Of a stretch of DNA of 64,000 bases, positions 41,119 through 58,563 are shown in pieces. The stretch lies in NCBI RefSeq assembly GCF_030269325.1, contig NZ_BSTD01000008.1:248001-312000 (forward strand), in the 5' to 3' direction. Made by a program: the position numbers and the translations under genes. Numbering within the stretch: the stretch's first letter is position 1; every line of letters starts with the position of its first letter. The DNA comes from Amycolatopsis sp. NBRC 101858. Its GTDB lineage: Bacteria > Actinomycetota > Actinomycetes > Mycobacteriales > Pseudonocardiaceae. The notes under the pieces were generated by a model. That model saw only the letters and a list, made by a program, of their open reading frames with translations. It was not told the origin of the DNA and made no database searches.

Positions 41119-44100
41119 GGCCGTCTTCCGGTCGAGGTGGGAGTGGCGAGGGGGACCGGCTCGCGGCCGAGGGGCGCCACCGGCACGTCGCCGGGCTGGA
41201 TGACGATCTTCAGCGCGAACCCGAGTCCTCGCCGCCGCTTGGCGGTGGTGATGTAGCTCTTGAGGAGGTTCTTCGCGCCCGACTGCTCGGCCCTCGACTC
41301 ACCCCACGGCACCGACCAGGAGATCTTCGCGTTCGGGTTGTCCCGCAACGCCTCTTGTAGCGCGCTGCGGCACGACTTGCACGGCGCGCGTTCGGTGTAC
41401 AAACCCTGGACCTGGTTCGGGGAGACGCCTCGCGCCCTCAGCTGGTCGAGGATCTGGATCTCCGAGTCGCCACCGGCGCCGCTGGACGCGACGACCATGT
41501 TCGGGTAGGGCCCGTACGACCAGCCGGGCACGTAGGCGACCGCGATGTTGTGGTCCGCGTCGAAGAACCCCATCGCGATGCGGGCTTCGAAAGCGGTCGT
41601 GCTGAGCAGGTCGCTGTCGTAGGCGATGATGCCGCAGCTGAAGTCCGGGATGTCCGACGTCGCCGAGGGTGGTGCCTCGGCCGCAGCTTCGGAAGGAGCG
41701 AAGCCGCCACCGCCACTGCCGAGGACACTGAGCCAGCTGCAGTACTTGTGCAGCCGGTTGAGGAGGTTCAGCACCTTCGCGGCCAGCTTCTCGAGCCGTT
41801 CGGAGCGCAGGACCCACTTGCCGATGTTCGCGACCACCGTGGTGATCGCCTTCACGATCGCCTTGCCCTTGATGAACGGCAGCACCAGGCCGACCACGTT
41901 CACGACGCTCCAGAGGCAGGCCCCGATGTCGCCGTCGCCGAAGCAGCGCTTGAAGTCCTCGACGCCGATGTACTCCAGCAGGACCTCGGCGCCGATCTCG
42001 AGCAGGAAGTCGACGACGTCCCGGCCGGCGAGGCAGTCGGCCGCCGCGGTCCGGTACTCCGCGAGCGTGGCCCGTCCTTCCGGGTCGGAGTTGAGCAGTT
42101 CGGCGTCCTGGATCGTGAGGTCGGGCAGGCACCCGGACGCGATCAGGCTCTCGAGGCCCCGGTGCTCCGCTTCCCGTTGCCGTTCGTCGATTTCAGCCTG
42201 GTCGGCGGCGCGTTGTGCGTCGGCGGCGGCCTCACGCGCCCGTTGTGCCGCGTTCGACGTCTCCTGGGCGTGGTTCCTCGCCCGTTCCGCCGCGGCCGCC
42301 GCTTCGGCGGCGTAACCCTGGGCCGTCGTGGCGGCGTCCCGGGCTGCGGTGGCGTCCGCCTCAGCCCGGGTGGCGGCACCGCGCGCGGCGGTCGCCTGGC
42401 CTTCGGCGGCGTCCGCGGCCAGTCCGGCGATCGCCGCGTCCGCGCGCGCGTTGTTCGCCTCCTGGCGGGCTTGGGTGGCGTTCCGATGGGCTGTCGCGTC
42501 GCTGTCGTTCGCGCTGTCCGCCGCGGCCCGGGCGAAATACGCCTCTGTGGCCGCGTTGGCCGCCGACCGCTGCGCCTCGGCCACGGACTGCGCGGCCTGC
42601 CAGGCCGACTTCGCCGCGTTCGCCGCCGCTTGGAACGCCGCCTTCGTTTCGGCGGCGGCGTTGTCGGCGGCCTGCTGGGCCTGCGTCGCGGCGACCTGGG
42701 CCTCGCCCGCCCGGGCCTGTGCGGCTTGCGCCTGCTCGTCGCCCACGGCCTGGGCCTGCGCCGCGACCTCGGCGACGAAGTCGGCGTCGAGGTCGGCTCC
42801 GGTGAACGGGGCCACCACGACGATCGCGGTGTTCGCCGGTGCGGTGATGGCGGCCGACGACTGCCGGGCCGCGAGCGCCGCCCGGCCGGCGAGGTTCGCC
42901 TGGGTCGCGGCGGAAACGGCCTCGCCGAACGACTCGTTCGCGCTCTGCCCGGCCCGGACGGCGTCGACCGTCGCCAGCCGGGCCTGTTCCGTCGCCTGCT
43001 CGGCGAGCGCGGCCGCGTTGCGAGCGGCGTCGGCGGCGTTGACCTCTTCGGCTGTTGCCGTGGCAGCCGCGGCGTTCGCGCGCATGGCGGCCAGGTGGGT
43101 GTCGGCGGCCGCGGATTCGGCCCGGCCCGCGGCCAGGTCCGCGTTCGCCGCGGCGGTCTCCGCGTCCTGCGCCGCGGCACGGGAGGCCGCGGCGGCCGCA
43201 GTCGCCTTGGTAGCCGCTTCGCGGGCCCGCGCGGCGGCACCGGTCGCCCGGTTGGCGGCATCCTGCGCACCCCGGGCCGCATCCGCCGCGTCGCGGGCGT
43301 CTCGGCGAGCTTCCTGGGCGGCTGCCCAGGCGGGTGCCTCCTGCGCGGTTCCCCTCGCCGCCGCCGCGGAGGCTTCGAGTGCCTGCGCCCGGGCTTCGGC
43401 GGCGTTCCCGGCCCGCTGGGCCGCCCACGCCGTGTCCCGCGCGGTCTTGGCGTTCGCCTCTTCCTGCCGTGCGGTGCTCTCGCAGCCGGCCGCGATGCCC
43501 TCCTGGGTGAGGGCGCGCGACAGGGCCGCGGCCGCTTCCCGCTTCTTCGCCTCGGCCTCACCGCGCGCCCTGCTCGCCTCGGCCGCGGCCGAGTCGGCTT
43601 GCTGGCGGTAACGGGCGGCTTCGTCGCGCTGGCGCTCGGCCTCCGCACGGGCGTTGCGAGCCTTGCCCGCCTGGTCCTGCGCCTCCCGGAGTGCGTCGTA
43701 GCTGCGTTGCATGCCCTGGTAGGCCTCGTCGCGGGCCACCTGGGCGGACACCCGGGCCTGCCTGGCCCGCTCGGCGGCGTCCTTCGCCGCCTTGGCCTGG
43801 TCCGCGGCCGCCGCGGCCAGGGACGCCGCCTGGGCGGCGTGTTCGTCCGCGTGCAGACGCCACTGCCGCGCCTCCTCCGCCCGGGCCGCGGCCTCGTTCT
43901 GGTGGCCGATCGCCGCATCCGTGGCCATGGTCGCGTCGAGGGCGTGCTGGGCCGTCTGGACCGCGAGTACCGCCGCCTGCGACGCGGACGCCATGCCGCG
44001 GGCCAGCTGCGCCCAGTCGGCGCCGTACGGCAGGCCCACCTCGACCAGGATGTTCGCTTCCGCCGTCGCCGCCACCGAGGCGTTCTGGGCTTCCGTCGCC

Positions 44101-45080
44101 GCCTGGCCCGCGAGATCGAGCTGCCGCTGGACTTCCTGGCGCGCCAGGCTGAACGTCTCGGGGGAGTGGTGGCCGCCCGCGGTGTTCGCGGCCAGGATCT
44201 GCGCCGCCTGGCGGGCCGCGGTGCCCGCCGAGACCATCGCGTTCGCCGCGCGCTGCAGCGACCGGACGCCGCGGCCGTTCGCGACCAGGAGGTTCTGCCG
44301 GGCCCGGGACGCCCGGGCGGCGCGCTGGGCCAGGTCGCTCGCCGCCTCGGCGGCCTTGTTCCGCTCTTCGAGGTCCTTCAGGTACTGCTCGCGGTTGGCG
44401 GCGTCGCGCTGCGCGGCCGCGACGTACCCGCCGTTGAAGAACGCCACGATCGCCGCGTCCCCGGCCGCGAGCGCCTGCTGCGCGGCGAGCTTGACCTCCG
44501 GGCCGACCGAGCCCACCAGCGCCGTCACCCGCGCTCGCAGCTCGTCGGCGCGGGCCTGGGTGTTCCGCCGGGTGCGCTCGTCCCGCTCGGTGGCGATGCC
44601 CCGGCCGTAGTCCAGGAACGCGGCACGGTCGGCGTCCGACCCGGACAGCACCCGCTCGACCTCGGCGTTGAAGATCGGGCCGCCGGTGCCACGCAGGTCC
44701 AGCACGGCTTCGCGGTTCAGCCGGGCCGTCTCGTTGCGGCGAGCCTCGGCCCGCTGCTGCGCTTCGACCTCGCCGGTGTCGAGGAACTCCCAGATCGCGT
44801 CCTCGGTCCCGGCGTCCAGCGCGGCCTGCGCCGCCTCCCGGACCTCGGGCTCTTCGGACAGCTGCGCGATGTCGGACACGAGCTTCCACAGCCGGGGGTC
44901 GAGCGCCTCGCCCATCCCCGTTTCGCCGTCCCAGCCCGGGTACTCGGTGTGCGGGATCGGCCGTGGGTCTTCGGCGGTTACCGCGACGGGGGCCGGCGTG
45001 AGGGCGTTGACGTCGGTGGTGGCGAACACGGTGAACGCCAGCACCAGGGCGAGCACCTTCGTGACGATTCCGTGCGGCAT
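41115..45080 (-). CDS. Giant secreted ALF-repeat/coiled-coil polymorphic toxin with C-terminal deaminase-fold domain
   Basis: A 1321-residue protein. Residues 1-26 form a signal peptide. Residues 57-230 contain three ALF repeats (EVREAAQAALDAG..., FNAEVERVLSGS..., VKLAAQQALAAG...). Residues 230-965 are an Ala/Glu/Arg/Gln-rich coiled coil. Residues 965-1125 form a pre-toxin region (CLPDLTIQDAELLNSDPEG; DGDIGACLWSVV) with hydrophobic helices. Residues 1145-1300 have a deaminase fold: GGDSEIQIL (Asp1205-x-Glu1207 in place of the usual HxE) and ERAPCKSC (Pro1233-Cys1234-x-x-Cys1237). It is the second gene of the operon and overlaps the small candidate immunity gene. The target (nucleic acid, nucleotide or other) is unknown. 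Composition is highly Ala-rich, which produces long antisense shadow frames. Confidence 0.8.
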   Translation of the reverse strand: MPHGIVTKVLALVLAFTVFATTDVNALTPAPVAVTAEDPRPIPHTEYPGWDGETGMGEALDPRLWKLVSDIAQLSEEPEVREAAQAALDAGTEDAIWEFLDTGEVEAQQRAEARRNETARLNREAVLDLRGTGGPIFNAEVERVLSGSDADRAAFLDYGRGIATERDERTRRNTQARADELRARVTALVGSVGPEVKLAAQQALAAGDAAIVAFFNGGYVAAAQRDAANREQYLKDLEERNKAAEAASDLAQRAARASRARQNLLVANGRGVRSLQRAANAMVSAGTAARQAAQILAANTAGGHHSPETFSLARQEVQRQLDLAGQAATEAQNASVAATAEANILVEVGLPYGADWAQLARGMASASQAAVLAVQTAQHALDATMATDAAIGHQNEAAARAEEARQWRLHADEHAAQAASLAAAAADQAKAAKDAAERARQARVSAQVARDEAYQGMQRSYDALREAQDQAGKARNARAEAERQRDEAARYRQQADSAAAEASRARGEAEAKKREAAAALSRALTQEGIAAGCESTARQEEANAKTARDTAWAAQRAGNAAEARAQALEASAAAARGTAQEAPAWAAAQEARRDARDAADAARGAQDAANRATGAAARAREAATKATAAAAASRAAAQDAETAAANADLAAGRAESAAADTHLAAMRANAAAATATAEEVNAADAARNAAALAEQATEQARLATVDAVRAGQSANESFGEAVSAATQANLAGRAALAARQSSAAITAPANTAIVVVAPFTGADLDADFVAEVAAQAQAVGDEQAQAAQARAGEAQVAATQAQQAADNAAAETKAAFQAAANAAKSAWQAAQSVAEAQRSAANAATEAYFARAAADSANDSDATAHRNATQARQEANNARADAAIAGLAADAAEGQATAARGAATRAEADATAARDAATTAQGYAAEAAAAAERARNHAQETSNAAQRAREAAADAQRAADQAEIDERQREAEHRGLESLIASGCLPDLTIQDAELLNSDPEGRATLAEYRTAAADCLAGRDVVDFLLEIGAEVLLEYIGVEDFKRCFGDGDIGACLWSVVNVVGLVLPFIKGKAIVKAITTVVANIGKWVLRSERLEKLAAKVLNLLNRLHKYCSWLSVLGSGGGGFAPSEAAAEAPPSATSDIPDFSCGIIAYDSDLLSTTAFEARIAMGFFDADHNIAVAYVPGWSYGPYPNMVVASSGAGGDSEIQILDQLRARGVSPNQVQGLYTERAPCKSCRSALQEALRDNPNAKISWSVPWGESRAEQSGAKNLLKSYITTAKRRRGLGFALKIVIQPGDVPVAPLGREPVPLATPTSTGRRP

Positions 45081-46402: not shown

Positions 46403-47011
46403 ATGAAATCCGTGTTCGGCAGGCGTGCGGCACTGCGCGGCGCCGCGGTGCTCGCGGCCGCGACGGCTCTCCCGCCGGGGACCGCCGAAGCGGCCGAGTC
46501 CGGCGAGCTGACCTGGCTGGTCCCGGTCGCGCCCCTGACCCCGCAGCGGATGCGGACCCGCCTGCTCGCCGGGATCCCGGCGGTGATCGAGTACGGCCGT
46601 CCGGTGACGGTCGGGCCGGTGACCGTCCAGGCCATCGGCGACGAGCACCTCGGGATGATCATCTACGCGGCCGGCTACCAGGCGGTCTCCGCGATCGTCA
46701 CCGCGTCCGTCGTCGTCGCGGACGCACGCGGGCTGTCCGGCCGGCTGCCGATCACCGTCACGTTCCCGCGCACCCCGGTGCCCACGACGCAGGCGGAGTT
46801 CGTGCTCACCGGCACGGCGATCCTGACCGGCACGCCCGTCCTGCCGTCCGCGCGCAACCCGGGTGTCACGACCATCGCGCTCGACCCGGACCCGGCCGCC
46901 GTCCTGACCTTCTACCGCCGGGGGAGCGGGGCACCCACCGAGGTCACGGGCGCACCCCGGCTGAACCCGGCGCAGCAGGACACCGTCGTCGCCCGGATCG
47001 AGGTGCGGTGA
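46403..47011 (+). CDS. Secreted beta-sandwich protein, paralog 1 (DUF6801-like)
   Basis: A 202-residue protein with a twin-arginine-like signal (FGRRAALRG plus hydrophobic run, residues 5-30). The mature part is beta-rich with GPVTVQAIGDEHLG, AGYQAVSAIVTASVVVADAR, GLSGRLPITVTFPRTPVP and FVLTGTAILTG. The same order recurs in the next two genes. It resembles DUF6801-type Ig-fold secreted proteins (weak, from pattern). The stop overlaps the next ATG. First gene of a six-gene operon; function unknown. Confidence 0.7.
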   Translation: MKSVFGRRAALRGAAVLAAATALPPGTAEAAESGELTWLVPVAPLTPQRMRTRLLAGIPAVIEYGRPVTVGPVTVQAIGDEHLGMIIYAAGYQAVSAIVTASVVVADARGLSGRLPITVTFPRTPVPTTQAEFVLTGTAILTGTPVLPSARNPGVTTIALDPDPAAVLTFYRRGSGAPTEVTGAPRLNPAQQDTVVARIEVR

Positions 47012-47601
47012 TGGCCTTCGGCAGACGGACGGCCTTGCGCGGGGCCGCGGTGTTCGCCGCCGGCGCGGCCGTGCCGGGGCGAGCCGGCGCGGGGACCCGC
47101 GAACTCACGTGGGAGCTGCACTCGACCCACATCGGCGGTGTCGGCCCCCTGCGGTCGCGGATCGTCTCCGGGGTGCCCGAGGTGGTCCGCTACGGGGAGC
47201 CGGTGGTGTTCGGCCCGGTGATCGTGCAGCTCGTCGGGAAGGACCTCCTCGGCGGCATGGCCAGGGCGGCCGGGTACGACGCGGTGTCGGCGAAGGTCAC
47301 CGCGCACGTCGTGGTCACCGACGCCCGGCAGCTGTCCGGCCGGCTCCCGGTGGCCGTGGAGTTTCCCCGGACGGTGGTCCCCGACGAGCGGGCGGAACTG
47401 GTCCTCACCGGCACGGCGACGCTCGCCGAGCCGGCGTCCGGGCCGCGCAACGCCGGGCCGATGACCGTCGCGGCCACGTCCGGAGCCGCCGGGGTGCTGA
47501 CCCTGTACCGGACCGGTTCGGGCGCCGCGACCCCACTCGGCTTCGAGGCCGGGCTCGCCTCGGACCAGGATCCGCTGCTCGCGACGCTCGAGGTGCGCTG
47601 A
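47011..47601 (+). CDS. Secreted beta-sandwich protein, paralog 2
   Basis: A 196-residue paralog of the preceding protein, with Tat-like FGRRTALRGAAV signal, GPVIVQLVGKDLLGG, AGYDAVSAKVTAHVVVTDAR, QLSGRLPVAVEFPRTVVP, VLTGTATL and the end motif DPLLATLEVR. It overlaps the previous gene by 1 bp (TGATG; GTG 47008 is an alternative start) and is followed 1 bp later by paralog 3. The three copies probably arose by tandem duplication and have diverged in the loops. Confidence 0.7.
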   Translation: MAFGRRTALRGAAVFAAGAAVPGRAGAGTRELTWELHSTHIGGVGPLRSRIVSGVPEVVRYGEPVVFGPVIVQLVGKDLLGGMARAAGYDAVSAKVTAHVVVTDARQLSGRLPVAVEFPRTVVPDERAELVLTGTATLAEPASGPRNAGPMTVAATSGAAGVLTLYRTGSGAATPLGFEAGLASDQDPLLATLEVR

Positions 47602-47602
47602 G

Positions 47603-48196
47603 ATGGCCCCCTTCGGCAGGCGCACCGCGTTGCGCGGAGCGGCCGTCCTCGCCGGGTCGGGCCTGCTCACCGGAGCCGCGGCCGGTGTCCTGGACGAGCT
47701 GCGCTGGGACCTCGACGCCGGACCGATGAGCGGCGAGGTGCTCCGGACGCGGATCCTCTCGGGCATCCCCGCTTCCGTCGCCTACGGGCAGCCGGTGACG
47801 CTCGGTCCGGTCACGGTCCAGCTGATCTGCAGCGACCAGGTCAGCGCCGGGGCGTGGGCGACCGGCCACAACGTCCTTTCCGCGGTGTTCCCGGTGACGG
47901 TCGTGGTGACCGACGCGCGCGGGCTGTCCGGCCGGTTCGGTGTCGACGTCACGATCCCGCGCACCCCGGTCCCCGTGGAGGAAGGGGACTTCGTGCTCAC
48001 CGGCACGGCGACGCTGTCCGGCGGGAACACCCCGGCGGCGCGGAACCCGGGGCCGATGACGGTCGCCGTCGAACCCGCCGCGTCCGGGTTCGTCGTGCTC
48101 TATTCGGCGCGGACCGGCGAGGCGGAGCCGCTCGAGTGCTGGCTGCGCCTCCAGCCCGGCCAAGACCCCCTGCTCGCGACGATCGAGGTGCACTGA
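47603..48196 (+). CDS. Secreted beta-sandwich protein, paralog 3
   Basis: A 197-residue third paralog (FGRRTALRGAAV signal; GPVTVQLICSDQVSAG; FPVTVVVTDARGLSGR; TIPRTPVPVEEGDFVLTGTA; ends DPLLATIEVH). It starts 1 bp after the previous stop and is followed 2 bp later by the protease gene. It has two cysteines (in QLICS and LECWL), unlike the other copies. Confidence 0.7.
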   Translation: MAPFGRRTALRGAAVLAGSGLLTGAAAGVLDELRWDLDAGPMSGEVLRTRILSGIPASVAYGQPVTLGPVTVQLICSDQVSAGAWATGHNVLSAVFPVTVVVTDARGLSGRFGVDVTIPRTPVPVEEGDFVLTGTATLSGGNTPAARNPGPMTVAVEPAASGFVVLYSARTGEAEPLECWLRLQPGQDPLLATIEVH

Positions 48197-48198
48197 AC

Positions 48199-49695
48199 GT
48201 GTTCATGGAACCGAAGACCGCGGCCGCGCTCGACGAGGCGAAGGCCGTCCTCGCCGCCGGACACCTCGGTGACCCCAACGTGGTCGGCGTCGCGAAGGGC
48301 TTCCGCACCCGTGACGGCGAGCTCACCGAAGAGCCGGTGGTCATCGCGCTGGTCCGCAAGAAGCGCCGCGCCGCACTGGTTTCCCGGCGACGGCTGCTGC
48401 CCGCCACCATCGGCGGGCACGGCGTCGACGTCGTCGAGACCGGCGAGTTCCGGTTCTCCGGCGCCACCAAGGCGGCCGCGGCCACGCCGATCGCCGAGCG
48501 GTTCCGGCCGCCGCTGCAGGGCGGCAGCCTCGGCTCGCTCGCCGACGGCACACTGGGCACGCTCGGCTGCCTGGTGCGGGACCGCACCGATGGCTCGATC
48601 TGCGTGCTGTCGGCCAACCACGTCCTGGCGAATTTCGGCGTCGCCGCGCAGGGTGCCGCGATCGTGCAGCCCGCGCCGCTGGACGGCGGAGCGGCCGAAG
48701 CCAACACCGTCGCCCGGCTCAAGCGATCCATCCCGCTCACCCAGGACGGCCCGAACACCGCCGACGCGGCGATCGCGCAGCTCGAGCCGGGCATCGGCGT
48801 GAGCTCGACGGTGGCCCGCAACCTGATGGCGCCGATCTCCGCGACCCACCCGGCGATCGGGCTGGCGTTCCTCGCCAGCGTCCACGGCGGGACGTTCATG
48901 GCCAAGATCGGCCCGGTGCTGGAGCAACTGGACGTCGAGCTGCTCACCGCGAACTCCACCGCCGTCGCCGTCGAGGGCCGCCGGATCGAGAAGGTCGGCC
49001 GCAGCTCGGGCTACACGTCGAGCGTGGTGCTGGACACCACCGCGACCGTGGTCGTCGACGGCTACCGGTTCACCGACCTGATCTACGCGCAGCGGTTCTC
49101 GCTCGTCGGCGACTCCGGCGCGGTCGTCTGCGAAGGCGGCAACGGGAAGACGTTCACCCCGCTGCCCGCGATCGCCTGCCGGATGCTCGGCGCCGCCGGC
49201 GCGTTCTACGACCTGCCGCTCGCCGGCGACAACGCGCTCGCCGACCAGGCGCGCGACGAGTTCCTCGGCGAGAGCCTGGTCGGGAACCTGGTCGTCCAGC
49301 TGGTCTACAAGAACCTCGACCTCGCGGTGAACCGGCTCGAAGCCGCGACCGCGAGCCCGGAGGAGAAGGCCGAAGCCCGGCGGTTCTACGACAAGTACCG
49401 GACGCTCGTGGCGTCCGTGCTCGGTGATCCCGCCTCGCCGGTCGCGCTGACCCAGGAGCACCTGGACGACGTCCGCACCATCTTCGCCGGGATCTCGCCG
49501 GACCTGGTCACCCTGGCGGAGAAGCAGGCGCTGTGGGTGATCTTCGACGACGTCGTCGCGCCGGCGCTCGGCAAGAACCGCGCCCAGCTGCTCGAGTACA
49601 TGAACGACCTGGCGGTGTACCGGCAAGTCGTGACGAGCCTGCGGGAGATCCCCGGCCTCGACGTCGACGGCACCTACGGGTTCTCCTCGCGGTGA
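48199..49695 (+). CDS. Trypsin-fold serine protease without signal peptide
   Basis: A 498-residue protein (GTG 48199; ATG 48205 is also possible). An N-terminal alpha/beta region (DPNVVGVAKGFRTRDGELTE, about 25-90) precedes a chymotrypsin-like domain (about 100-330) with His in VLSANHVLAN, Asp in TADAAIAQL and Ser in LVGDSGAVV. A C-terminal helical domain (about 360-498) follows. There is no signal peptide, so it is probably cytosolic, odd for a gene between secreted proteins and isoprenoid enzymes. Its stop overlaps the next start (GTGA). Confidence 0.78.
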   Translation: MFMEPKTAAALDEAKAVLAAGHLGDPNVVGVAKGFRTRDGELTEEPVVIALVRKKRRAALVSRRRLLPATIGGHGVDVVETGEFRFSGATKAAAATPIAERFRPPLQGGSLGSLADGTLGTLGCLVRDRTDGSICVLSANHVLANFGVAAQGAAIVQPAPLDGGAAEANTVARLKRSIPLTQDGPNTADAAIAQLEPGIGVSSTVARNLMAPISATHPAIGLAFLASVHGGTFMAKIGPVLEQLDVELLTANSTAVAVEGRRIEKVGRSSGYTSSVVLDTTATVVVDGYRFTDLIYAQRFSLVGDSGAVVCEGGNGKTFTPLPAIACRMLGAAGAFYDLPLAGDNALADQARDEFLGESLVGNLVVQLVYKNLDLAVNRLEAATASPEEKAEARRFYDKYRTLVASVLGDPASPVALTQEHLDDVRTIFAGISPDLVTLAEKQALWVIFDDVVAPALGKNRAQLLEYMNDLAVYRQVVTSLREIPGLDVDGTYGFSSR

Positions 49696-50612
49696 CGGCG
49701 ACCGCGGACCCGGTCCGGTACCACCTCGGCCGGCTCGCCGGCGGGCTTTCCGCGCCGCTGCGCGACACCGTCGGCGGGCTCGTCGACCGGCCCGGCAAGC
49801 TGCTGCGGTCGCGGCTGCTCACCGCCTGCGCCGGATACGGCCGCTCCGACGGCGAGCGGGTGGCACGGCTCGGCGCGGTGGTCGAGCTGGTGCACCTGGC
49901 CTCCCTCGTGCACGACGACGTGATCGACCGCGCATCGATCCGGCGAGGCGGGCCGGCCGCGCACCGCACGGCCGGGCCGGAGCTCGCGGTCCTCGCCGGC
50001 CTGGCCTGCCTCGCGGCGGCCGGGACCGAAGCCGCCGATCTCGGCCAGGGGGTCGCCACGGCGGTGAGCCGGACGGTGGCCGACCTCGCGCACGGCGAGC
50101 TGCTCGACGTCGAGCGCGGCTTCGACACGGGGTTGTCCCTGCCGGACTACGTGGACCTGGTGCGGCGCAAGACCGGTGTGCTGTTCCGGTTGTGCTGCCT
50201 GCTCGGCGCGGCGGAGTCCGGCGTGGACAGCGCGGTCGTCGCGGCGCTCGCCGAGTTCGGCGTGGAGTGGGGGATCGCGTTCCAGGTCCTCGACGACTGC
50301 CTCGACCTCGAAGCCGCGGGCGACGACAAGCCGGCCGGGACCGACCACCTGCTCGGCCTGTTCGGCGCACCGACCCTGGCGGCCCTGCGCGCCGACACCA
50401 CGGGCGAGCTGCACCGGCTGCTGCTCGCGCCGTCGTTTTCGAGCGGTGACCTGGCACGGGTGCGAGAGCTGGTCACGGCCCACGGTGGCCTCCGGGCGGC
50501 TCGTACCTTGGCAGGTGTCCACTTCGGACATGCACAGGCGGCGCTGGCCCGCACCCCGGACGGCCCGGCGCGGCGCGCGCTGGCGGGGATGCTCGAAGCG
50601 AGCCGTTCTTGA
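49692..50612 (+). CDS. Polyprenyl diphosphate synthase (trans-isoprenyl diphosphate synthase)
   Basis: A 306-residue all-helical enzyme that condenses isopentenyl diphosphate with allylic diphosphates. Both aspartate-rich motifs are present: HDDVID (Asp75, Asp76, Asp79) and FQVLDDCLD (Asp201, Asp202, Asp205), with RPGKLLRS upstream binding the diphosphate. Chain length cannot be fixed. It overlaps the protease gene (GTGA) and the downstream reductase fusion (TTGA), so all are co-translated. The partner at 50609 carries a degenerate synthase-like domain, suggesting a heteromeric enzyme. Confidence 0.88.
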   Translation: MTATADPVRYHLGRLAGGLSAPLRDTVGGLVDRPGKLLRSRLLTACAGYGRSDGERVARLGAVVELVHLASLVHDDVIDRASIRRGGPAAHRTAGPELAVLAGLACLAAAGTEAADLGQGVATAVSRTVADLAHGELLDVERGFDTGLSLPDYVDLVRRKTGVLFRLCCLLGAAESGVDSAVVAALAEFGVEWGIAFQVLDDCLDLEAAGDDKPAGTDHLLGLFGAPTLAALRADTTGELHRLLLAPSFSSGDLARVRELVTAHGGLRAARTLAGVHFGHAQAALARTPDGPARRALAGMLEASRS

Positions 50613-52549
50613 GCCACGCGGTGGTGCTCGGCGCCGGACCGGCCGGCGCGGTGACCGCGGCCGTGCTCGCCCGCGGTGGCCTGCCGGTCGTGCTGGCCGG
50701 GCGGGAGGATGCTGCCCCGCGGCACGACGTCCTGGTCGGCGGCCCGGCGCGGGAGATCCTGCGGTCGATCGGGGTGGCGGTGGACGCCTGGCCGGTGCTC
50801 CCGGTGGCGATCGCCTTCGACGCCAGGACCGTTCACGACGTGGTGGATGCCGGGTATTCCGTGGTGGATGGTGCGGTGCTGCGGGAGACACTGCGGGAGC
50901 ACGCCGTCCGGTGCGGGGCCGAATACCGCACGGCGGTGGCGGAGGTTACGCCCGGCGCCGGAGGGGTGGAAGCGCTCGGACCCGTGGTCCCGGCAGCTCC
51001 GCACATCGTCCTGGCCGGCGGCCCCGCCCACCTCGGCACCACACCGCCGTACAGCACCGGCCTCGTCTGCGCCCGGCGCTTCACCGGTCCCGTCCCCGGC
51101 GAGCGCGTCCTCCTCCACCTCCTCGCCCCGCCGGCGGACGACCGGCGCGGGAAGCCGCGCTGTGCCTGGCTCGCCCCCACCCCCGACGGCTGCACGATCG
51201 GCGCGTCCGCCCTCGGCGACGTCGATGCGGACGCCCTCCTCGACGCGGCCGTCGCGGCGCTCGCCGAGATCGAACCGCGGGTGCTGGAGTGCGTCCCGGC
51301 GGGCCCCGCGGCGGCCGGCGCGCTGCACAGCGGCTTCAGCCCCGCGTCGGCCGCGAGCCGCCGGGGGCTGCGGGTCGGCGACGCGGCCGGCCTGGTCAAC
51401 CCCTTCACCGGCGAGGGGCTGAGCAACGCCGTCCAGTCGGGACAGCTGGCCGCGCGGGCGATCCTGGCCGGGAAGAACGACCCGGCCGCCGCCCGGCGGG
51501 AGTACGAACGCCTGCTGGGGTCGGCGTTCGTCGGCTACTTCGAGACCGCGCACCACGCCGCCCGCCGGTACCACCTCGCCTGGCGCGTGCTGGCCGCCGG
51601 CGCGGGCAGCGAACGGCCGTTCTTCGCCAAGGGACGGCGAGCCGTCGTGCTGCCCGAAGGCATCTCGGCGCTCGCCGGGGCCGAACCCCTGGACCTGCCG
51701 GCCGGGGTGCGGGCTCCGCTACTGCCGTTCCTCGCGGCCTGCGACGAAGTGGCCGTGTCCTGCGTCCGCGGCGAATGGCCGTTCCTGGCCCGGATGTTCG
51801 CCGCCGGCCACGAGGACGTGCGGCTGCGGCCCGCGATCGGGTTCTTCGCGGCACTCGTGTCCGGTGGGGACGCCCCGGCCCGCGGTGCCGCGACGGTCGC
51901 GGCGGCCATCGAGCTGGCCACGCTCGGCGCGCTGGCGTTCCTCGGCCCGGCGGTCACCCCGCGCGAAGTGCGCGGCGTGGACTGGGAGTCCGCGGCGACC
52001 GTCCTCGCCGGCGACTACCTGCTGGGCCAGGCATCGCGGCTGATCACCGAGGCCGCGCCGGAGCTGGCGTGGTCCTTTTCGGACTGGCTGGGTGAACTGG
52101 CCGCGTTGCGCGCCGACGCCGTGACGACCGGTGCCGGCGCCGAGGCGGTCTTCGCGTCGCTGTTCGAGTTCCCGTTGCGGATCGGAGCGGCAATGGCCGG
52201 GGTGGCCGCGGAGCCGTTCCGGGACTACGGCGCCGCGCTGGGCCGGGCCTTCCTCCGGGGCGAGGACGTGCTCGCCCTGCGCGGCGAGCGCACCCGCCTC
52301 GACGCGACGCTTGCCGACCTGCTCGACGGCCGGATCTCGGCGTTGCCGGAGCTGCTGGCGACTCCCGGGCTGACCGCGGATTCCCTTCCGCAGCAAGCAC
52401 TTCCGACCGCCATCGAAGCGGGACGACGGGCGCGCGCCGAACTCGAGCCGGCGTGCGCAGCGGTGGACCATCCCGTCGCGCGAGAGCTGTTGCGTGCGGT
52501 GGCGGACTTCGTGACCGGTCCGGTCAGAGGATCGGCAGCGTCGGGCTGA
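50609..52549 (+). CDS. Geranylgeranyl-reductase-like flavoprotein fused to a degenerate prenyl-synthase-like domain
   Basis: A 646-residue fusion with a TTG start overlapping the preceding stop. Residues 1-340 form an FAD-dependent reductase: GAGPAG (8-13) and RVGDAAGLVNPFTGEGLSNA. Residues 385-640 resemble a trans-prenyl synthase (RPAIGFFAALVSGGDAPARG; TVLAGDYLLGQASRLITEA; LGRAFLRGEDVLAL) but lack both DDxxD motifs, so this part is probably inactive and structural. It may pair with the active synthase at 49692 and saturate its product. I know no common family with this order. Its 3' end overlaps the convergent secreted-protein gene by 26 bp. Confidence 0.78.
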   Translation: MSHAVVLGAGPAGAVTAAVLARGGLPVVLAGREDAAPRHDVLVGGPAREILRSIGVAVDAWPVLPVAIAFDARTVHDVVDAGYSVVDGAVLRETLREHAVRCGAEYRTAVAEVTPGAGGVEALGPVVPAAPHIVLAGGPAHLGTTPPYSTGLVCARRFTGPVPGERVLLHLLAPPADDRRGKPRCAWLAPTPDGCTIGASALGDVDADALLDAAVAALAEIEPRVLECVPAGPAAAGALHSGFSPASAASRRGLRVGDAAGLVNPFTGEGLSNAVQSGQLAARAILAGKNDPAAARREYERLLGSAFVGYFETAHHAARRYHLAWRVLAAGAGSERPFFAKGRRAVVLPEGISALAGAEPLDLPAGVRAPLLPFLAACDEVAVSCVRGEWPFLARMFAAGHEDVRLRPAIGFFAALVSGGDAPARGAATVAAAIELATLGALAFLGPAVTPREVRGVDWESAATVLAGDYLLGQASRLITEAAPELAWSFSDWLGELAALRADAVTTGAGAEAVFASLFEFPLRIGAAMAGVAAEPFRDYGAALGRAFLRGEDVLALRGERTRLDATLADLLDGRISALPELLATPGLTADSLPQQALPTAIEAGRRARAELEPACAAVDHPVARELLRAVADFVTGPVRGSAASG

Positions 52550-53096
52550 AGGTCCCGATCTGACCGGCGCTCAGCGTGCAGGCCATGGTCCAGTTCGTCC
52601 ACGTGTTGTTCGACGCCTTGTGGAACTGGAGGGCGAACGAGGCCGGCGAGCCGGTGCTGAACGTGATCGTTCCCGCCGCACCGGCGACGAACGACTGGCT
52701 CGCGCCGAAGAACGGGATCGTCGCCGGCATGCCCCAGGTGGTCGTCGGGACCGTGCCGCCGGTGCCACCGGCGGGCGTCGCGTTCGTTGCGGTGACGGGG
52801 ATCGCGCCGCTGCCGCGGACACTGTCGTAACCGATGGCGATCAGCAGCGAACGAGTGGCGGTGGACAGCGCGAGACTGCCGGAAATCCCGGTGATGGTGA
52901 ACGTCGCGCCGGGCGCGACCGTGCTCGGCCCGTCGAACGTCTCGGTGACCGGAGTCGCCTGCGCCGAGATGCCGGGGAAGGTGCAGCGGTACCCGACCGG
53001 TCCCGCGTTGTACGTCGTGAGCGCGGCCGCCGGCCCGGCGACCGCGACGAGGGCGGCCACCGCCGCCGGAACGAGGATCAGGAGACGACGGAACAC
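52524..53096 (-). CDS. Secreted DUF6801-like protein
   Basis: A 190-residue protein: signal peptide (1-25, AAA end), then a beta-rich domain beginning YRCTFPGI. The end carries ALQFHKASNNTWTNWTMACT, nearly identical to the tail of the protein at 54650. Cys pairs (YRC, MAC) may form a disulfide. Function is unknown; it is secreted and probably surface-exposed. It converges on the reductase fusion with a 26-bp overlap. Confidence 0.72.
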   Translation of the reverse strand: MFRRLLILVPAAVAALVAVAGPAAALTTYNAGPVGYRCTFPGISAQATPVTETFDGPSTVAPGATFTITGISGSLALSTATRSLLIAIGYDSVRGSGAIPVTATNATPAGGTGGTVPTTTWGMPATIPFFGASQSFVAGAAGTITFSTGSPASFALQFHKASNNTWTNWTMACTLSAGQIGTFSPTLPIL

Positions 53097-53138
53097 GGTC
53101 CCTCCACTTCGGATCTTCGGATCGTCGGGCTGAAGGCG

Positions 53139-54560
53139 TCAGCGGCTCTGGCGGAAGACCTCCGCGGGGACCGGCACGACCGGCGGGCAGTTGCGGTGGT
53201 CGGTCTCCATGCACAGCTGGATCAACGACAGGCGCGCCGAGGCCTGGTTGCCGGGGCCGGAGTTCTGGCCGGTGAACAGCGAGCTCAGCTTCTCCGCCGC
53301 GCCGCAGTTCTTGAACGGCGGCAGCGTGAAACCGCGGAACTTGGGGTCGGGGTTGTCCGGGTCGGTGCCGATGAGACCGCCCAGGAACGGGTCGTACTCG
53401 CCGATCATGTCGATCGACATCGGGGTCGCCGAGACGCAGTCCGGACCGGCGTCCAGTGGCACCCCGTTGACCTTGACATCGCTCAGCCGGGAGACCACGT
53501 CGAGGTGGTTGCGCAGGATCCCGTCGAACAGGGTCCCGAACGAGTGGATCATCTTGCCGGTCCGGTAGTCGGCAGGCAGGAACTCGACGGTCGCGCTGAT
53601 CGGCAGGAAGCCGTAACCCAGATAGGAGACCGTCACCGGGGTGAAGCCGACCTCGCCGGTGATCTCACTCCTGAGCGGGAACCCGTTCACGTCGGTGATC
53701 CGGAACCAGACGCCGTTGACCAGCGCGGCCGGTGCACTGTGGATGACGCTGCCGGTCTTGGTGATCGTGGCCGTGTTGTCGATCTGGTTCGGCTGCAGCG
53801 GCAGCACCAGCGTGACGTTGTCGTCGGGCGGTGGCTCGTCGTCCAGCAGCGAGTGCTTCTGGGAGCCGTTCGGCCGCGGTGCGGGGGTGGCCTTCTTCTG
53901 CGGCGTGGGTTTCCCGGCCGGCGGCGCGGTGGCGGCGAGGACGGCGACCGAGCCGAAGGAGAGGTCCTGCCCGGCGTCGGGGGTGCAGGCCACCTGCTCG
54001 GCGGACTGGTTCGCCGGCGCGCCCGTGGGACCGATGGCGAGTTTCGGTGCGCTCAGCCGGATGCGGAGCACGCCCGCGGCGGACGGCGAGAACGCCGCCA
54101 GCTTCCCCTTGGCCACCAGGGGGACGTCCCCTTCGGCAGGCAGCGGGGTCGCGGCGATGGTCAGCGGGACGGCGAGGGTGTCCTTGACCTTGCCCTGCTC
54201 CAGCAGCAGCTGGAAGGTCAGCCCGCCTTCGAGCGTGCTGCCCGCACCGAGCAGCTGCTGCGCGGCCGCGCGGGGCAGCGAGAACGACACGGCCAGTCCG
54301 TCGATCGTCGCGGGCCGGCCCGTGGTCATCGAGGCGGGCAGCGTGGCCGCGGTGGTCACGTCGAGCTTCAGCGGCCCGACCGGGTCGGCGAAGGGACACG
54401 ACGCCGTGATCGTCTTGGTGATGTCACGGCCGCCCGCTCCCGCGTCCGGGGCCGGGGCGCCGGGAGCGGCGGACCCGGTCCCGGTGAACGCGCCGGTGAC
54501 CACCGACACCGCGCACGCCAGCGCGAGCGCGCCTCGGGTCGCTGTCCGCCGAGCTGGCAT
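53139..54560 (-). CDS. Secreted protein with DUF6801-like domain and Pro-rich linker
   Basis: A 473-residue protein: signal peptide (1-31), an N-terminal beta-sandwich similar to DUF6801 (about 48-205; ASCPFADPVGPLKLDVTTAA ... AEQVACTPDAG with terminal cysteines), a Pro/Lys/Thr linker (213-247; ATAPPAGKPTPQKKATPAP) and a C-terminal beta-rich domain (255-470) ending in a Cys-containing segment (LCMETDHRNCPPVVPVPAE). The function is not recognised; architecture suggests an adhesin-like or wall-exposed protein. Confidence 0.72.
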   Translation of the reverse strand: MPARRTATRGALALACAVSVVTGAFTGTGSAAPGAPAPDAGAGGRDITKTITASCPFADPVGPLKLDVTTAATLPASMTTGRPATIDGLAVSFSLPRAAAQQLLGAGSTLEGGLTFQLLLEQGKVKDTLAVPLTIAATPLPAEGDVPLVAKGKLAAFSPSAAGVLRIRLSAPKLAIGPTGAPANQSAEQVACTPDAGQDLSFGSVAVLAATAPPAGKPTPQKKATPAPRPNGSQKHSLLDDEPPPDDNVTLVLPLQPNQIDNTATITKTGSVIHSAPAALVNGVWFRITDVNGFPLRSEITGEVGFTPVTVSYLGYGFLPISATVEFLPADYRTGKMIHSFGTLFDGILRNHLDVVSRLSDVKVNGVPLDAGPDCVSATPMSIDMIGEYDPFLGGLIGTDPDNPDPKFRGFTLPPFKNCGAAEKLSSLFTGQNSGPGNQASARLSLIQLCMETDHRNCPPVVPVPAEVFRQSR

Positions 54561-54594
54561 GTCGTGCTCCTGTCCGTGCGACTGGGGGAACGGG

Positions 54595-54630
54595 CCGCGG
54601 GGATGGCCGGTGCACCGGCCATCCCCGCGG
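54595..54630. terminator. Perfect 36-bp palindrome (terminator hairpin)
   Basis: Arms 54595-54610 and 54615-54630 (CCGCGGGGATGGCCGG and its complement) flank TGCA. It lies 20 bp past the stop of the minus-strand gene 54650-55267, before the next gene's ribosome-binding site. It has no U-tract, as is common for actinobacterial terminators. Confidence 0.8.
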
Positions 54631-54649
54631 TCTTGCTACACCCCGCCGA

Positions 54650-55267
54650 TCACGTGATGGTGAAGGTCGGCGAGAACGCCAGGTTCTGCACCGGGCTGGT
54701 CTTCGGCGTGCAGGTCATGTTCCAGTTCGCCCAGGTGTTGTTGGACGCCTTGTGGAACTGCAGGGCCGCGGTGATCGGCGTGCCGAGCGACAGCGTGTCC
54801 GTGCCCGCGGTCGCCGGGGCCGTGTAGGTCGGGATCGACGAGGTCGCCACCTGGTTGATGTTGACCGTGATCGAGCCGCCCGCCGGGTAGATCACCTCGG
54901 GGATGTTGAGCCCGGACGCGGGCCCGGAGACCGAGCCGCGGGCCGCGGTGACCGGCACCGTCGCCGTGCCGCGGATGCCGTCGTAGCCGACCGCGGTCAG
55001 CAGCGAGTGGACCGCGGCCGAGATCGTCGCGGTGCCCCCGACCGCCGTCGGCACGGCCGTGCCGCCGGCCGCGATCGAGTCCGGCCCGGTGAGGGTCGCG
55101 GTGATCCCGACGTCCTGCTGCGGGATGCCCGGGAACGTGCACCGGTACGTGGCGGCCGCGTTGTACGGTTGATCGGCCGACGCCACGCCGGCGAAGACCA
55201 TGCCGAGCGCGCTGACGGCCGCGGCGGTCGTGACCGCCTTGAGGGACAGGTTCTTGAGTCGGGTCAT
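54650..55267 (-). CDS. Secreted DUF6801-like protein
   Basis: A 205-residue protein: signal peptide (residues 1-32, ASA end), then a beta-sandwich beginning YRCTFPGIPQQDVG, with a repetitive Thr/Val/Ala core. The tail ALQFHKASNNTWANWNMTCT matches the protein at 52524. ATG 55267 is chosen because AAGGAGA lies 9 nt upstream, whereas the TTG at 55276 directly abuts it. A palindrome terminates the gene. Function unknown. Confidence 0.75.
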   Translation of the reverse strand: MTRLKNLSLKAVTTAAAVSALGMVFAGVASADQPYNAAATYRCTFPGIPQQDVGITATLTGPDSIAAGGTAVPTAVGGTATISAAVHSLLTAVGYDGIRGTATVPVTAARGSVSGPASGLNIPEVIYPAGGSITVNINQVATSSIPTYTAPATAGTDTLSLGTPITAALQFHKASNNTWANWNMTCTPKTSPVQNLAFSPTFTIT

Positions 55268-55627
55268 GACTGTCAATCTCCTTCGATCATCCAGTTGACG
55301 TCTCGACGGGCGCTGCCCAAGCGCCCCGCGGGCCGAAGCGGCACCGCGAATTCCCCCGGTGTTTCCCTGGTGCAGCCGGAACCCTCGCGAGGTGGCTGTG
55401 AGAAATAAGGTTACTCGTGAGTCGGTTGCGCAACAAGGATGTCATCCGGCCGGTTTTCACGGCCACCCCCGAGAGTGCTTTCTTGTCAGCGCCGGAGTAG
55501 TCGCCGGACGATGTTGGTGCGGTTTTGACAAATACTCCGGGGGGTCCCGATCGGCAGTTGTGCGGGTTACTATCGATACCACGCGCGCAGCGTGCCCGCG
55601 AGAATCGATTCAGCGAAAGAGGACGCC
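55268..55627. other. 360-bp divergent intergenic region
   Basis: No gene seen. It contains a good minus-strand promoter (55408-55436) for the DUF6801-like gene with a leader of about 130 nt, and on the plus strand TTGACA (55525-55530) and TACTAT (55568-55573), whose spacing is not canonical. The leader has no recognisable riboswitch fold by eye. Confidence 0.55.
55408..55436 (-). promoter_or_regulatory. Putative promoter of the DUF6801-like gene
   Basis: On the minus strand TTGTTG (55431-55436) and TAACCT (55408-55413) are separated by 17 bp. Transcription would start near 55401, leaving a leader of about 130 nt before the ATG at 55267. Confidence 0.5.
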
Positions 55628-56575
55628 GTGGGTCCCCGTTTCCGCAGTGCCCCCCGCCGGGCTTCCGTGCTGCTCGCCGTCACCCTGGTCACCGTTCCGG
55701 TGGTGTCGGGCGCGGCCGCCTCCGCACAGGCGCCGAGCGTCGGCGGCGTGGTCGAATGGGGGTTCTCGAACTACATCCTGGGGCCGCCCCCGGAAGCGTC
55801 CGAAGGCGTCGGCGCGGTCTCCATGGGCGGGATGGACGCCATGGGCCTCAAGGCGGGCCAGGTCCTGGTGTGGGGCGACAACAACTTCGGCCAGACGGAG
55901 GTGCCGGAGGCGGCGATGTCCGGCGTCAGCGCGATCGCCGCCGGCTGGGGGCACGAGCTCGCGCTGAAGAACGGCGGCGTCCTGGCCTGGGGAAACGATT
56001 GGTACGGCCAGACGCAGGTGCCTGCCGACGCGAAGTCCGGTGTGGTCGCCATCTCGACCAGCGCGATGCACAACCTCGCGCTCAAGGCGGGTGGGCGCGT
56101 GATCGCCTGGGGCCTGCGCTCGGACGTCCCGGCCGCGGCGACGTCCGGCGTCACCGCGATTTCCGCCGGGGGCGACCACAGCCTGGCGATCAAGAACGGC
56201 GGGGTGCTCGCCTGGGGCGCCGACGAGCACGGCCAGACCGACGTGCCTGCCGACGCGAAGTCGGGCGTCACCGCGGTTTCCGCCGGTCACCAGCACAGTC
56301 TCGCGCTCAAGGACGGCCGGGTGCTCGCCTGGGGCCGCAACGACGACCACCAGATCGAGGTCCCGGACGCCGCGCTGTCGGACGTCGTCGCGATCGACGC
56401 CGGGTGGACCTTCAACTACGCGCTCAAGAGCAACGGTGACTTCGTCGCCTGGGGCTCCAACGACGTGACCGAAAGCGACCCGTCGAGCTGGGGGGTCTGC
56501 GGGCCGTTCCTGACCGTCTCCGCGGGCGACCGGTTCGTCGTCGCGCTGAAGGAAGATCCCGCCGCACCCTGCTGA
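55628..56575 (+). CDS. Secreted RCC1-repeat beta-propeller protein
   Basis: A 315-residue protein: signal peptide (about 1-36), then six or so RCC1-type repeats of about 40 residues with the core SGVxAISAGxxHSLALKxGxVLAWG and GQTxVP, expected to fold into a propeller. The GTG start (55628) is preceded by AGAGGA. Eukaryotic RCC1 is a Ran exchange factor, but secreted bacterial copies are probably protein- or glycan-binding. It is flanked by unrelated secreted proteins and ends at a palindromic terminator. Confidence 0.83.
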   Translation: MGPRFRSAPRRASVLLAVTLVTVPVVSGAAASAQAPSVGGVVEWGFSNYILGPPPEASEGVGAVSMGGMDAMGLKAGQVLVWGDNNFGQTEVPEAAMSGVSAIAAGWGHELALKNGGVLAWGNDWYGQTQVPADAKSGVVAISTSAMHNLALKAGGRVIAWGLRSDVPAAATSGVTAISAGGDHSLAIKNGGVLAWGADEHGQTDVPADAKSGVTAVSAGHQHSLALKDGRVLAWGRNDDHQIEVPDAALSDVVAIDAGWTFNYALKSNGDFVAWGSNDVTESDPSSWGVCGPFLTVSAGDRFVVALKEDPAAPC

Positions 56576-56587
56576 CCAGGCACGAAA

Positions 56588-56617
56588 AGAGGGGCGCACC
56601 GGCCGGTGCGCCCCTCT
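56588..56617. terminator. Perfect 30-bp palindrome (bidirectional terminator)
   Basis: AGAGGGGCGCACCGG (56588-56602) is the exact reverse complement of 56603-56617. It lies 13 bp after the RCC1-gene stop and 15 bp before the stop of the convergent gene at 56632, so it can serve both. Confidence 0.83.
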
Positions 56618-56631
56618 CGTCGTGCCCCGGC

Positions 56632-57300
56632 TCAGCCTTCGGTCTTGGCCGCCAGGTCCAGCGAAATCGTGTTGCCCGGCCCGGAGATCAGCGCGCCCAG
56701 CGCCAGGTCGGCGATGAAGCAGTTCTTGAACTCCGGGATGGTGTACGTGCCCGTGACGGTGATCTTCGGGCCGAAGATGTCGACGTCCTTGGCACTCAGG
56801 TCGAGGTCGAGCGGCTTGCTCGCCTTGCAGCTGCCCGGCACCGTCGGGATCGGGATGACCGGCACGATCAGGCCGGCCCAGATGTCGTAGATCTCCATGT
56901 TGGCCTGGGCGTGCGTGGTCAGCGTGGCGTCCGCGATGGTGCCGGTGGCCGGGCCGGTCGGGGTGATCTTGACCTTCGCCTTGATCCGGAAGATGCCCGA
57001 CACCAGCGAGATGTCGGCCTGCGACGGCGGCAGGCTCAGGTTGGCCCGCAGGCCGACCGAGCCGGTCTGGTCGTCGATGATCAGCGCACCGTCGAGGGTG
57101 CCGGGGCCCAGTGCCATCGAGCCGCCGGTCTTCTTCACCACGGTGCTGCCGGTGACCGTGTAGCCCACCGGGATCTCGACCACGTCGGCCGACGCGGGCA
57201 CGGCGGTGACGACGCTCAGCGCGACGCCGGCGACCGCCGTGACCGCGGCCGCGCGTGCCCATTTCCGGCCGTTCTTCCGAGTGCGCGACAAAACAGGCAT
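56632..57300 (-). CDS. Secreted protein of unknown function
   Basis: A 222-residue protein: signal peptide (1-38, ASA end), then an all-beta domain of alternating hydrophobic strands (GSMALGPGTLDGALIID; ADISLVSGIFRIKAKVKI; ANMEIYDIWAGLIVPVIPIP). It has two cysteines (GSCKAS, KNCFIA). The family is not recognised. It lies 40 bp upstream of the 3' end of the mce operon on the same strand but has its own spacing, so it may be separate. Confidence 0.65.
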   Translation of the reverse strand: MPVLSRTRKNGRKWARAAAVTAVAGVALSVVTAVPASADVVEIPVGYTVTGSTVVKKTGGSMALGPGTLDGALIIDDQTGSVGLRANLSLPPSQADISLVSGIFRIKAKVKITPTGPATGTIADATLTTHAQANMEIYDIWAGLIVPVIPIPTVPGSCKASKPLDLDLSAKDVDIFGPKITVTGTYTIPEFKNCFIADLALGALISGPGNTISLDLAAKTEG

Positions 57301-57949: not shown

Positions 57950-58563
57950 CTCGCCCCCACCGGCAGCTCGTCGAGGGCGCTGAGCTTCCAGCCGCCGTCG
58001 GTCCGGGTCAGTCCCGCGGCGAACCGGTTGCGCTTGGTCGCCGGCGCGACCCCTTCCTTCAGCGCGGTGATCTCCACCGAGGCCAGCAGCTTGGCGGTGC
58101 CCGCGTGCTCGTCGAGCTCGCTCAGCGCCGCGTCCAGCACCTTGCCGGTGGACACCGTCGCGTCCTGGGTGAGGGTCTTCTTCGTGGCTTCGTCGGTGTG
58201 GGCCAGCCGGTCGTGCAGCGGCCCGGTCGACGCGTCGAGCCACTGCGCGAGCCCCTGATCGAGCTGGTGGTAGTCGAGGGTGCACAGCAGCGCGACCAGC
58301 TGGCGGCCGCTGGAGAGCGCTTCGTCGCGGGCGGTCCCGTAGGTCAGCGTTTCGCTGTGCGCCGTGCGGTACCAGCCGATCCCCGCCCAGGCCGCGAAGG
58401 CCGCGGTGACGACCACGGCCGCGACCGCGGCCCGCAACCGCCACTTCCTGTGCCTTTTGTGACCGATCCGACCACAGTCACGGCCGAATGGCTGCGTGGC
58501 AACGGTTACGTGCCGCGGGGCGGTCGGCCTGCTTTTGGCCGGATCGGTCACTTTCCCAGCCAC
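57946..58563 (-). CDS. Mce-associated membrane protein
   Basis: A 205-residue protein with a basic cytosolic N-terminus (RIGHKRHRKWRLR), one membrane segment (about 44-65) and an extracytosolic domain related to the next protein (QLDQGLAQWLDASTGPLHDR; DGGWKLSALDEL). It overlaps the mceF-like gene by 16 bp and the following Mce-associated gene by 4 bp. GTG 58563 is the first start; later GTGs are possible. Confidence 0.78.
   Translation of the reverse strand: MAGKVTDPAKSRPTAPRHVTVATQPFGRDCGRIGHKRHRKWRLRAAVAAVVVTAAFAAWAGIGWYRTAHSETLTYGTARDEALSSGRQLVALLCTLDYHQLDQGLAQWLDASTGPLHDRLAHTDEATKKTLTQDATVSTGKVLDAALSELDEHAGTAKLLASVEITALKEGVAPATKRNRFAAGLTRTDGGWKLSALDELPVGAR

Follow-up and report, generated by a model that had tools for sequence, protein, structure and literature searches.

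Human PDSS1/PDSS2 is a heteromeric trans-prenyl diphosphate synthase. Heteromers that include a subunit without DDxxD are known, the precedents being M. luteus HexA/HexB, the heptaprenyl synthase of B. subtilis and mint GPPS, the last with a small subunit devoid of DDxxD (PMC7839719). Synthase-fold subunits that steer a catalytic partner are known; in the locus described here a candidate subunit of this sort is fused to a member of the prenyl-reductase flavoproteins. The locus lies in the window, by which we mean the whole 64,000-nucleotide stretch that was analysed (positions 248,001 to 312,000 of contig NZ_BSTD01000008.1), from the 11.16-Mb genome of Amycolatopsis sp. NBRC 101858. As in the heteromeric synthases, a complete synthase and a synthase fold without DDxxD motifs are encoded beside each other. 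Unlike in those systems, the putative non-catalytic partner carries an N-terminal domain of the geranylgeranyl reductase (GGR) type, a protease gene accompanies the pair, and the heteromer itself is a prediction. On the evidence below we lean towards reading the fusion protein as a non-catalytic partner within a heteromeric trans-polyprenyl diphosphate synthase.

The fusion gene is a single open reading frame that starts with TTG and ends with TGA (Table 1). Its start codon lies inside the sequence TTGA, and it therefore overlaps the stop codon of the synthase gene by four bases; the synthase gene overlaps the upstream protease gene likewise, via GTGA.

Table 1. Features of the fusion locus and its surroundings, in window coordinates.
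Feature	Position	Strand	Remarks
Fusion gene: GGR-type FAD domain and predicted non-catalytic polyprenyl diphosphate synthase (PPS) domain	50609..52549	+	646 aa
GGR-type flavoprotein domain, residues about 1-345	50609..51643	+	TIGR02032 E 4e-14; 3oz2 fold
Predicted non-catalytic PPS domain, residues about 359-640	51683..52528	+	PF00348; 9imr Z 23.8
Site of lost first Asp-rich motif	51941..51955	+	reads L445 G446 P A V449
Site of reduced second Asp-rich motif	52262..52276	+	reads E552 D553 V L A556
Intact trans-polyprenyl diphosphate synthase	49692..50612	+	306 aa; PF00348 165 bits
NARROW LEAF 1-like trypsin-fold protease	48199..49695	+	498 aa, His/Asp/Ser present; PF25608 28.5 bits
DUF6801 protein, RR near N-terminus (by eye)	47603..48196	+	PF20611 28.7 bits, cut-off 26
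DUF6801 proteins and relatives	46403-48196	+	
DUF6801 proteins and relatives	52524-57291	-	
MlaD/Mce4 protein	58551-59753		
Protein with C-terminal XOO_2897-like deaminase domain	41118-45080	-	1321 aa; 53.8 bits

Judged from sequence, the homology of the fusion C-terminus to prenyl synthases is real, that is, above chance. The PF00348 model matched a 266-aa C-terminal fragment at 27.0 bits (E 3e-6), equal to its cut-off of 27, and the whole protein at 23.9 bits, below that cut-off. A phmmer search of the PDB matched the fusion C-terminus to octaprenyl-diphosphate synthase 4jxn (E 1.9e-6), and a profile of 26 fusion C-terminal domains recovered stand-alone synthase frames with E-values down to 4e-24, the best of which (L143) has intact catalytic columns. 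This profile, alignment A4, and alignment A3 each comprise the window fusion and 25 of the 32 loci L045-L076 introduced below. Given 26 aligned fusions, AlphaFold2 modelled the whole protein with pLDDT 85.5 and pTM 0.83, and VIA-align superposed residues 344-639 of the model on the M. tuberculosis synthase Rv0562 (GrcC1; 9imr) with Z 23.8 and a root-mean-square deviation (rmsd) of 3.3 over 269 residues. Folded alone, the C-terminal domain gave pLDDT 87.1 and pTM 0.84, with residues 1-22 below 50. For this lone domain 9imr was among the tied best VIA-align matches (Z 19.9, rmsd 3.2, 235 residues), while Foldseek preferred rice OsSPS3 (E 2.7e-6), with query TM-scores of 0.52-0.66 across the best 50 matches listed. 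All of the best 50 structure matches listed for the lone domain are prenyl synthases or prenyltransferase domains, and chains of heteromeric synthases occur among the fold matches (3aqb_B and 3krf_D with VIA-align, 9kp1_B with Foldseek). The C-terminal domain is thus predicted to have the synthase fold. In M. tuberculosis, Rv0562 adjoins Rv0561c (MenJ), a synthase beside a GGR-family gene as in the window; these are separate genes, and the reductase is not known to carry a dead synthase domain, unlike the window fusion.

Catalytic residues were counted over 16 columns of an alignment that combined 37 fusion domains with 34 partner and 31 reference synthases, the broken partner of locus L067 and the loci without a partner falling outside the 34. 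Three synthase landmarks are present in the window fusion: RPAIGFF (residues 407-413), VLAGDYLLGQA (465-475) and LGRAF (544-548). An Asp stands at any of the three first-motif columns in none of the 37 fusion domains. At the second motif an acidic pair (Glu/Asp then Asp/Glu) is kept in 37/37 and the third Asp in 0/37. Lys160, Lys213 and Asp205 are each absent from all 37, Asp205 being a residue that also varies among the 31 reference synthases. The window domain, which has Val both at the K160 column (KTxxLF) and at the K36 column (GKxxR), possesses neither DDxxD motif nor the substrate-binding Lys; the Arg of GKxxR (R39 column) is retained in 37/37. Four relatives seen later and read by eye (L174, L189, L190 and L191) have lost the first motif as well, and one of them, from Rhodococcus (L174), reads D-E-x-x-D at the second motif and has a Lys at the KTxxLF site.

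The adjoining synthase keeps both DDxxD motifs (HDDVID and LDDCLD), likewise the Lys and Arg columns. Across the partner synthases all 16 catalytic columns are kept in 33 of 34, the remaining one having Asp205Glu. The best family model for the window's partner is solanesyl synthase, at 138.7 bits and below its cut-off of 383.2. The partner synthases of the main clade have in common an unusual GTDHxLGLFGxPTL-like stretch, at a place where other synthases usually have the form GKD...GKxTLP. Ala70 of the partner, five residues before the first Asp-rich motif, is invariant in alignment A2. A small residue at that position accompanies longer products, though not strictly (PMC6214179), and from Ala70 we would guess at a product of C20 or longer. 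The earlier note on this DNA had given the fusion gene the same limits, had named the three landmarks, and had claimed that both DDxxD motifs were absent from a synthase-like C-terminus and that the neighbour was an intact synthase; all of this was borne out (the two sites read LGxxV and EDxxA, with an acidic pair left in the second), and the predicted fold answers its concern that the C-terminus might not fold as a prenyl synthase.

About 40 fusions with open frames, from many genera, were found in Actinomycetota. Among 100 related genomes, nine have a fusion match above 270 bits (the Amycolatopsis genome itself, G017, G057, G043, G027, G063, G025, G038 and G042), and the next-best match in the 100 scores 51 bits. 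In G027, of the same genus, the match covers fusion residues 229-642 only. The other eight, with a full-length fusion, are the same eight of the 100 genomes in which the partner synthase was found at E ≤ 1e-40; in G027 it was not found in the genome at that threshold, nor was the protease found in the 17-kb locus. At this G027 locus (L040, 7962-9260) the C-terminal two thirds of the fusion remain as an open frame. The fusion is inherited together with a complete synthase, with one exception (L067) considered below.

A scan of GTDB species gave 58 loci, of which 32 (L045-L076) are of the fusion kind and the other 26 match within residues 1-336 only. The 32 loci come from Amycolatopsis, Kibdelosporangium, Nonomuraea, Actinomadura, Streptosporangium, Actinosynnema, Rugosimonospora, Patulibacter, Prauserella, Kribbella, Herbihabitans, Conexibacter and one Streptosporangiaceae metagenome-assembled genome. 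The dead domain was detected in 30 of them, L074 and L075 being partial. In wider samples, fusion matches were found in 2/394 genomes of the class (own included), in 14/397 of the order, where 3 extend into the synthase domain, and in 5/295 of the genus of G267, where 3 are full fusions, G267 itself among them; absences in these searches are weak, because only 2-6 candidates were scored per genome. A plasmid home for the cassette was considered and rejected: among 72,556 plasmid records a single one, a Rhodococcus megaplasmid, matched at E ≤ 1e-5.

The dead domain is under purifying selection: in each of 11 pairs, taken from 14 loci, its ratio of non-synonymous to synonymous substitution rates (dN/dS, Nei-Gojobori) falls within 0.23-0.40. 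The same analysis gave 0.21-0.50 for the GGR half, 0.11-0.44 for the synthase and 0.15-0.65 for the protease. These values bear on the notion of neutral decay, in which two dying genes would have fused and been kept by chance. Catalytic motifs have indeed been lost from both halves, and truncated remnants occur in G027 and L074; but the constraint on both halves, the roughly 40 open frames in many genera and the co-occurrence of the fusion with the partner synthase make such a history extremely improbable. We reject a decaying pseudogene on the dN/dS of the 11 pairs together with the open relatives, and an assembly or frameshift artefact on the presence of fusions in many genera.

We placed the domains in two unrooted trees. 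A 30-row tree omits L052 and L075 on the fusion side, L052 and L067 on the partner side, and some references; a 20-row tree, for which the bootstrap had not settled, holds 20 of 41 fusion domains, 20 partners and 15 references. A single branch sets the dead domains apart, supported at 98 in the 30-row tree and at 100/99 in the 20-row tree, which includes the early forms. The main-group partners cluster together (100 in the 30-row tree, 100/100 in the 20-row tree), and the pairs L162+L171 and L189+L191 occur on the fusion and partner sides alike.

Lack of catalytic motifs, an intact synthase next door and joint inheritance are together to be expected if the pair is a heteromeric synthase in which one subunit is non-catalytic. 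In such a heteromer the adjoining synthase would make the prenyl chain. The dead domain would bind it by the face that synthases ordinarily use to dimerise (helices E and F), and would stabilise it or set chain length, as proposed for HexA and plant small subunits. Helices E, F1 and F2 are located at the homodimer interface of CrtE (PMC7261888), and the model of the dead domain retains helices at the interface places (459-482 and 484-507), with helix letters assigned by order. The likeness to heteromeric synthases drawn in the earlier note therefore holds for fold, motif loss, intact adjoining synthase and co-inheritance; contact between the proteins and an effect on chain length are predictions.

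Several observations weigh against a heteromer. Positions at least 96% identical number 9/48 in helices E and F, 4/17 in helix D and 30/259 over residues 381-639, so conservation does not single out the dimer interface of the dead domain. Of the residues read, all those required for a normal homodimer are present in the adjoining synthase. Four Actinomadura loci (L050, L052, L053 and L073) have the synthase and protease on the strand opposite the fusion, with synthase and fusion about 4.8 kb apart. In Kribbella catacumbae (L067, 7353-9902) an intact fusion domain (292 bits) lies beside a 191-aa synthase frame from which most of the first-motif region is missing and in which the second motif reads DETSD, a real exception to the pairing of the fusion with a complete synthase. 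In the trees, L172+L174 is firm on the partner side (99/97) and weak on the fusion side (88/67), and the union of all partners is unsupported (47/34 in the 20-row tree, two changes in the 30-row tree).

An intact neighbour would also suit a docking or channelling role, in which that synthase works as a homodimer and the dead domain takes the completed polyprenyl diphosphate into its former tunnel and offers it to the flavin domain. The helical fold is kept, the acidic pair and the R39-column Arg, each universal in the 37 domains, could bind diphosphate, and the partner active site is complete by the columns read. However, none of the 37 retains the first motif, Lys160 or Lys213, so that diphosphate binding by the dead domain would be weak, and we regard this role as unlikely.

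The N-terminal half resembles the GGRs and menaquinone reductases (TIGR02032, archaeal GGR, MenJ) in its fold and flavin adenine dinucleotide (FAD) motifs. It matched TIGR02032 with E 4e-14, its model superposed on the GGR 3oz2 (VIA-align, Z 30.1, rmsd 3.0 over 323 residues), and both FAD-binding motifs are present, GAGPAG and GDAAGLVNPFTGEG. It differs from them in its score (52.9 bits against a cut-off of 158.8) and in two motifs: PRxKxCGD, with the catalytic Cys, is missing and APRHDVLVGGPA stands at that site, and the cavity motif PxxYxWxFP is replaced by PRCAWLAP, with Trp and Pro kept and Tyr and Phe lost. We compared these motifs in 42 fusions and 15 stand-alone flavoproteins. The Cys motif is present in 7 of 40 readable fusions (L162, L171, L172, L174, L189, L190 and L191), early-branching relatives among them, and gone from 33, the window included; in two (L040 and L070) the region is unreadable. 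Thirteen of the 15 flavoproteins keep it, in a set biased towards Cys forms by the use of one of them, L174, to select it; the other two (L106 and L107) score 120 and 119 bits with TIGR02032, below the cut-off. PMC10821996 describes the Cys as conserved among archaeal GGRs, as essential to the enzyme of S. acidocaldarius and as missing from several paralogs. The window fusion has lost the catalytic signatures of both parents. The linker helix (FLAACDEV) holds another Cys, fusion residue 378, whose conservation across 26 fusions is at least 96% despite the loss of the GGR Cys.

The fusion may also be read as an active prenyl reductase that saturates the neighbour's product in the manner of MenJ or archaeal GGR, a role that would be compatible with a heteromer. 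The GGR fold, the intact FAD motifs and the Cys motif of the seven relatives speak for it; the loss of PRxKxCGD from the window and 32 other fusions, a cavity motif reduced in the window to Trp and Pro, and the Cys motif of most comparison flavoproteins (in that Cys-biased set) speak against it, as does a separate GGR in the same genome, at 238 bits above the TIGR02032 cut-off (C5:280118). With PRxKxCGD lost, a saturating reductase is unproven for the window protein, and we hold such activity possible but rather unlikely. The earlier note's suggestion of a reductase that could saturate the product thus survives for the fold and FAD motifs and is weakened by the loss of PRxKxCGD and of the Tyr and Phe of the cavity motif. 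A housekeeping MenJ is unlikely, because the genome has its own GGR above the family cut-off. If the fusion is a synthase subunit, its GGR-derived flavin domain would receive the prenyl chain. Where the GGR signature is intact, in early-branching relatives, that domain would presumably saturate the chain; in the window's clade, having lost its catalytic Cys and the greater part of the cavity motif, it more likely binds lipid or carries out an altered flavin chemistry.

The third gene of the cassette, on which the earlier note's finding is silent, encodes a protease like plant NARROW LEAF 1: it matched PF25608 (NAL1_N; cut-off 27) and the rice NAL1 structure 7y77 (E 3e-12), and the Nal1_C model reached 23.1 bits, below its cut-off of 26.1. 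Unlike the plant proteases it is bacterial and coupled to prenyl-lipid genes. A Ser protease triad is readable in NHV, NTAD and GDSG. Among 32 proteases with a readable region, His is present in 30, Asp in 32, Ser in 30 and all three in 29 (L065 is cut off; L056 has two copies, of which one was read). In a survey of 39 loci (the window, L040-L042, L045-L076, L162, L171 and L172), the partner synthase is present in 34 and the NAL1-like protease in 31. The loci without the synthase are L040, with its truncated fusion, L062 and L070, at contig ends, L067, with the broken frame, and L074, a fragment; these five, L061, L075 (a short contig) and L172 lack the NAL1-like protease. In the variant cassettes L172 (from G938) and L174 (on Rhodococcus plasmid pRB98, 5393-10326) an S8 subtilase takes its place (PF00082 scores of 187 and 173 bits), together with a 150-aa protein that could be assigned to no family; an SCP2-like lipid carrier was considered for that protein and dropped, with no Pfam, NCBIfam or PDB support. 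The NAL1-like protease, synthase and fusion are together again in L189-L191.

The protease gene would belong to the cassette as a unit with synthase and fusion. The three proteins, with the subtilase standing in for the NAL1-like protease in two loci, might even form one undescribed actinobacterial device, in which the fusion keeps the synthase off or limited in chain length and the protease releases or matures it; we think this doubtful. If true, it would be a protease-gated prenyl synthase, with proteolysis governing how a special prenyl lipid is made. A role in anti-phage defence was considered and rejected: PADLOC gave no match for five cassette proteins, a weak test. The Rhodococcus subtilase scored 38.9 bits with IteS, an anti-phage peptidase (cut-off 900), and 132 with mycosin (cut-off 278.75).

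A further family of small proteins was found in 20 loci, mostly directly upstream of the protease in the loci shown, and an RR motif is visible by eye close to the N-terminus of several members. In the window their place is occupied by DUF6801 proteins, the nearest of which is probably encoded in one transcription unit with the cassette. DUF6801 proteins and their relatives cluster around the cassette, and an MCE lipid-transport operon, of which one MlaD/Mce4 protein was checked, adjoins the cluster; by neighbour clustering, DUF6801-type families were seen only in Amycolatopsis-type loci and Kibdelosporangium. Further upstream, the protein with the XOO_2897-like deaminase domain looks, from its sequence, like a polymorphic toxin, and ALF-repeat proteins adjoin it. 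In Prauserella alba (L066, 4888-12401) the cassette adjoins a recombinase-like gene (by eye). Genes were called by codon usage alone, with a simple program for which genes of the window served as training set; it missed this cassette, which the open reading frame listing then showed; its codon usage therefore differs, and it is possibly a recently acquired island.

Titles and abstract beginnings of the open PMC literature, which leaves aside subscription papers and preprints, contained no mention of the fusion among the matches listed. The synthase and fusion pair, usually with a protease, has the look of an undescribed machine of two subunits that makes a lipid. That a protease so often accompanies it, replaced by an unrelated one in two loci, hints that the lipid pathway is under proteolytic control, of which the same literature matches gave no sign. 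The fusions form a graded series, from an intact Cys motif with a half-decayed synthase (Rhodococcus L174, G938 L172) to the loss of both signatures (Amycolatopsis, Actinomadura). Living sequences suggest, without dates, that the first Asp motif was lost first, then the second motif and the Lys, and the GGR signature last; with such a series, the order of change from catalytic pair to regulator is directly testable.

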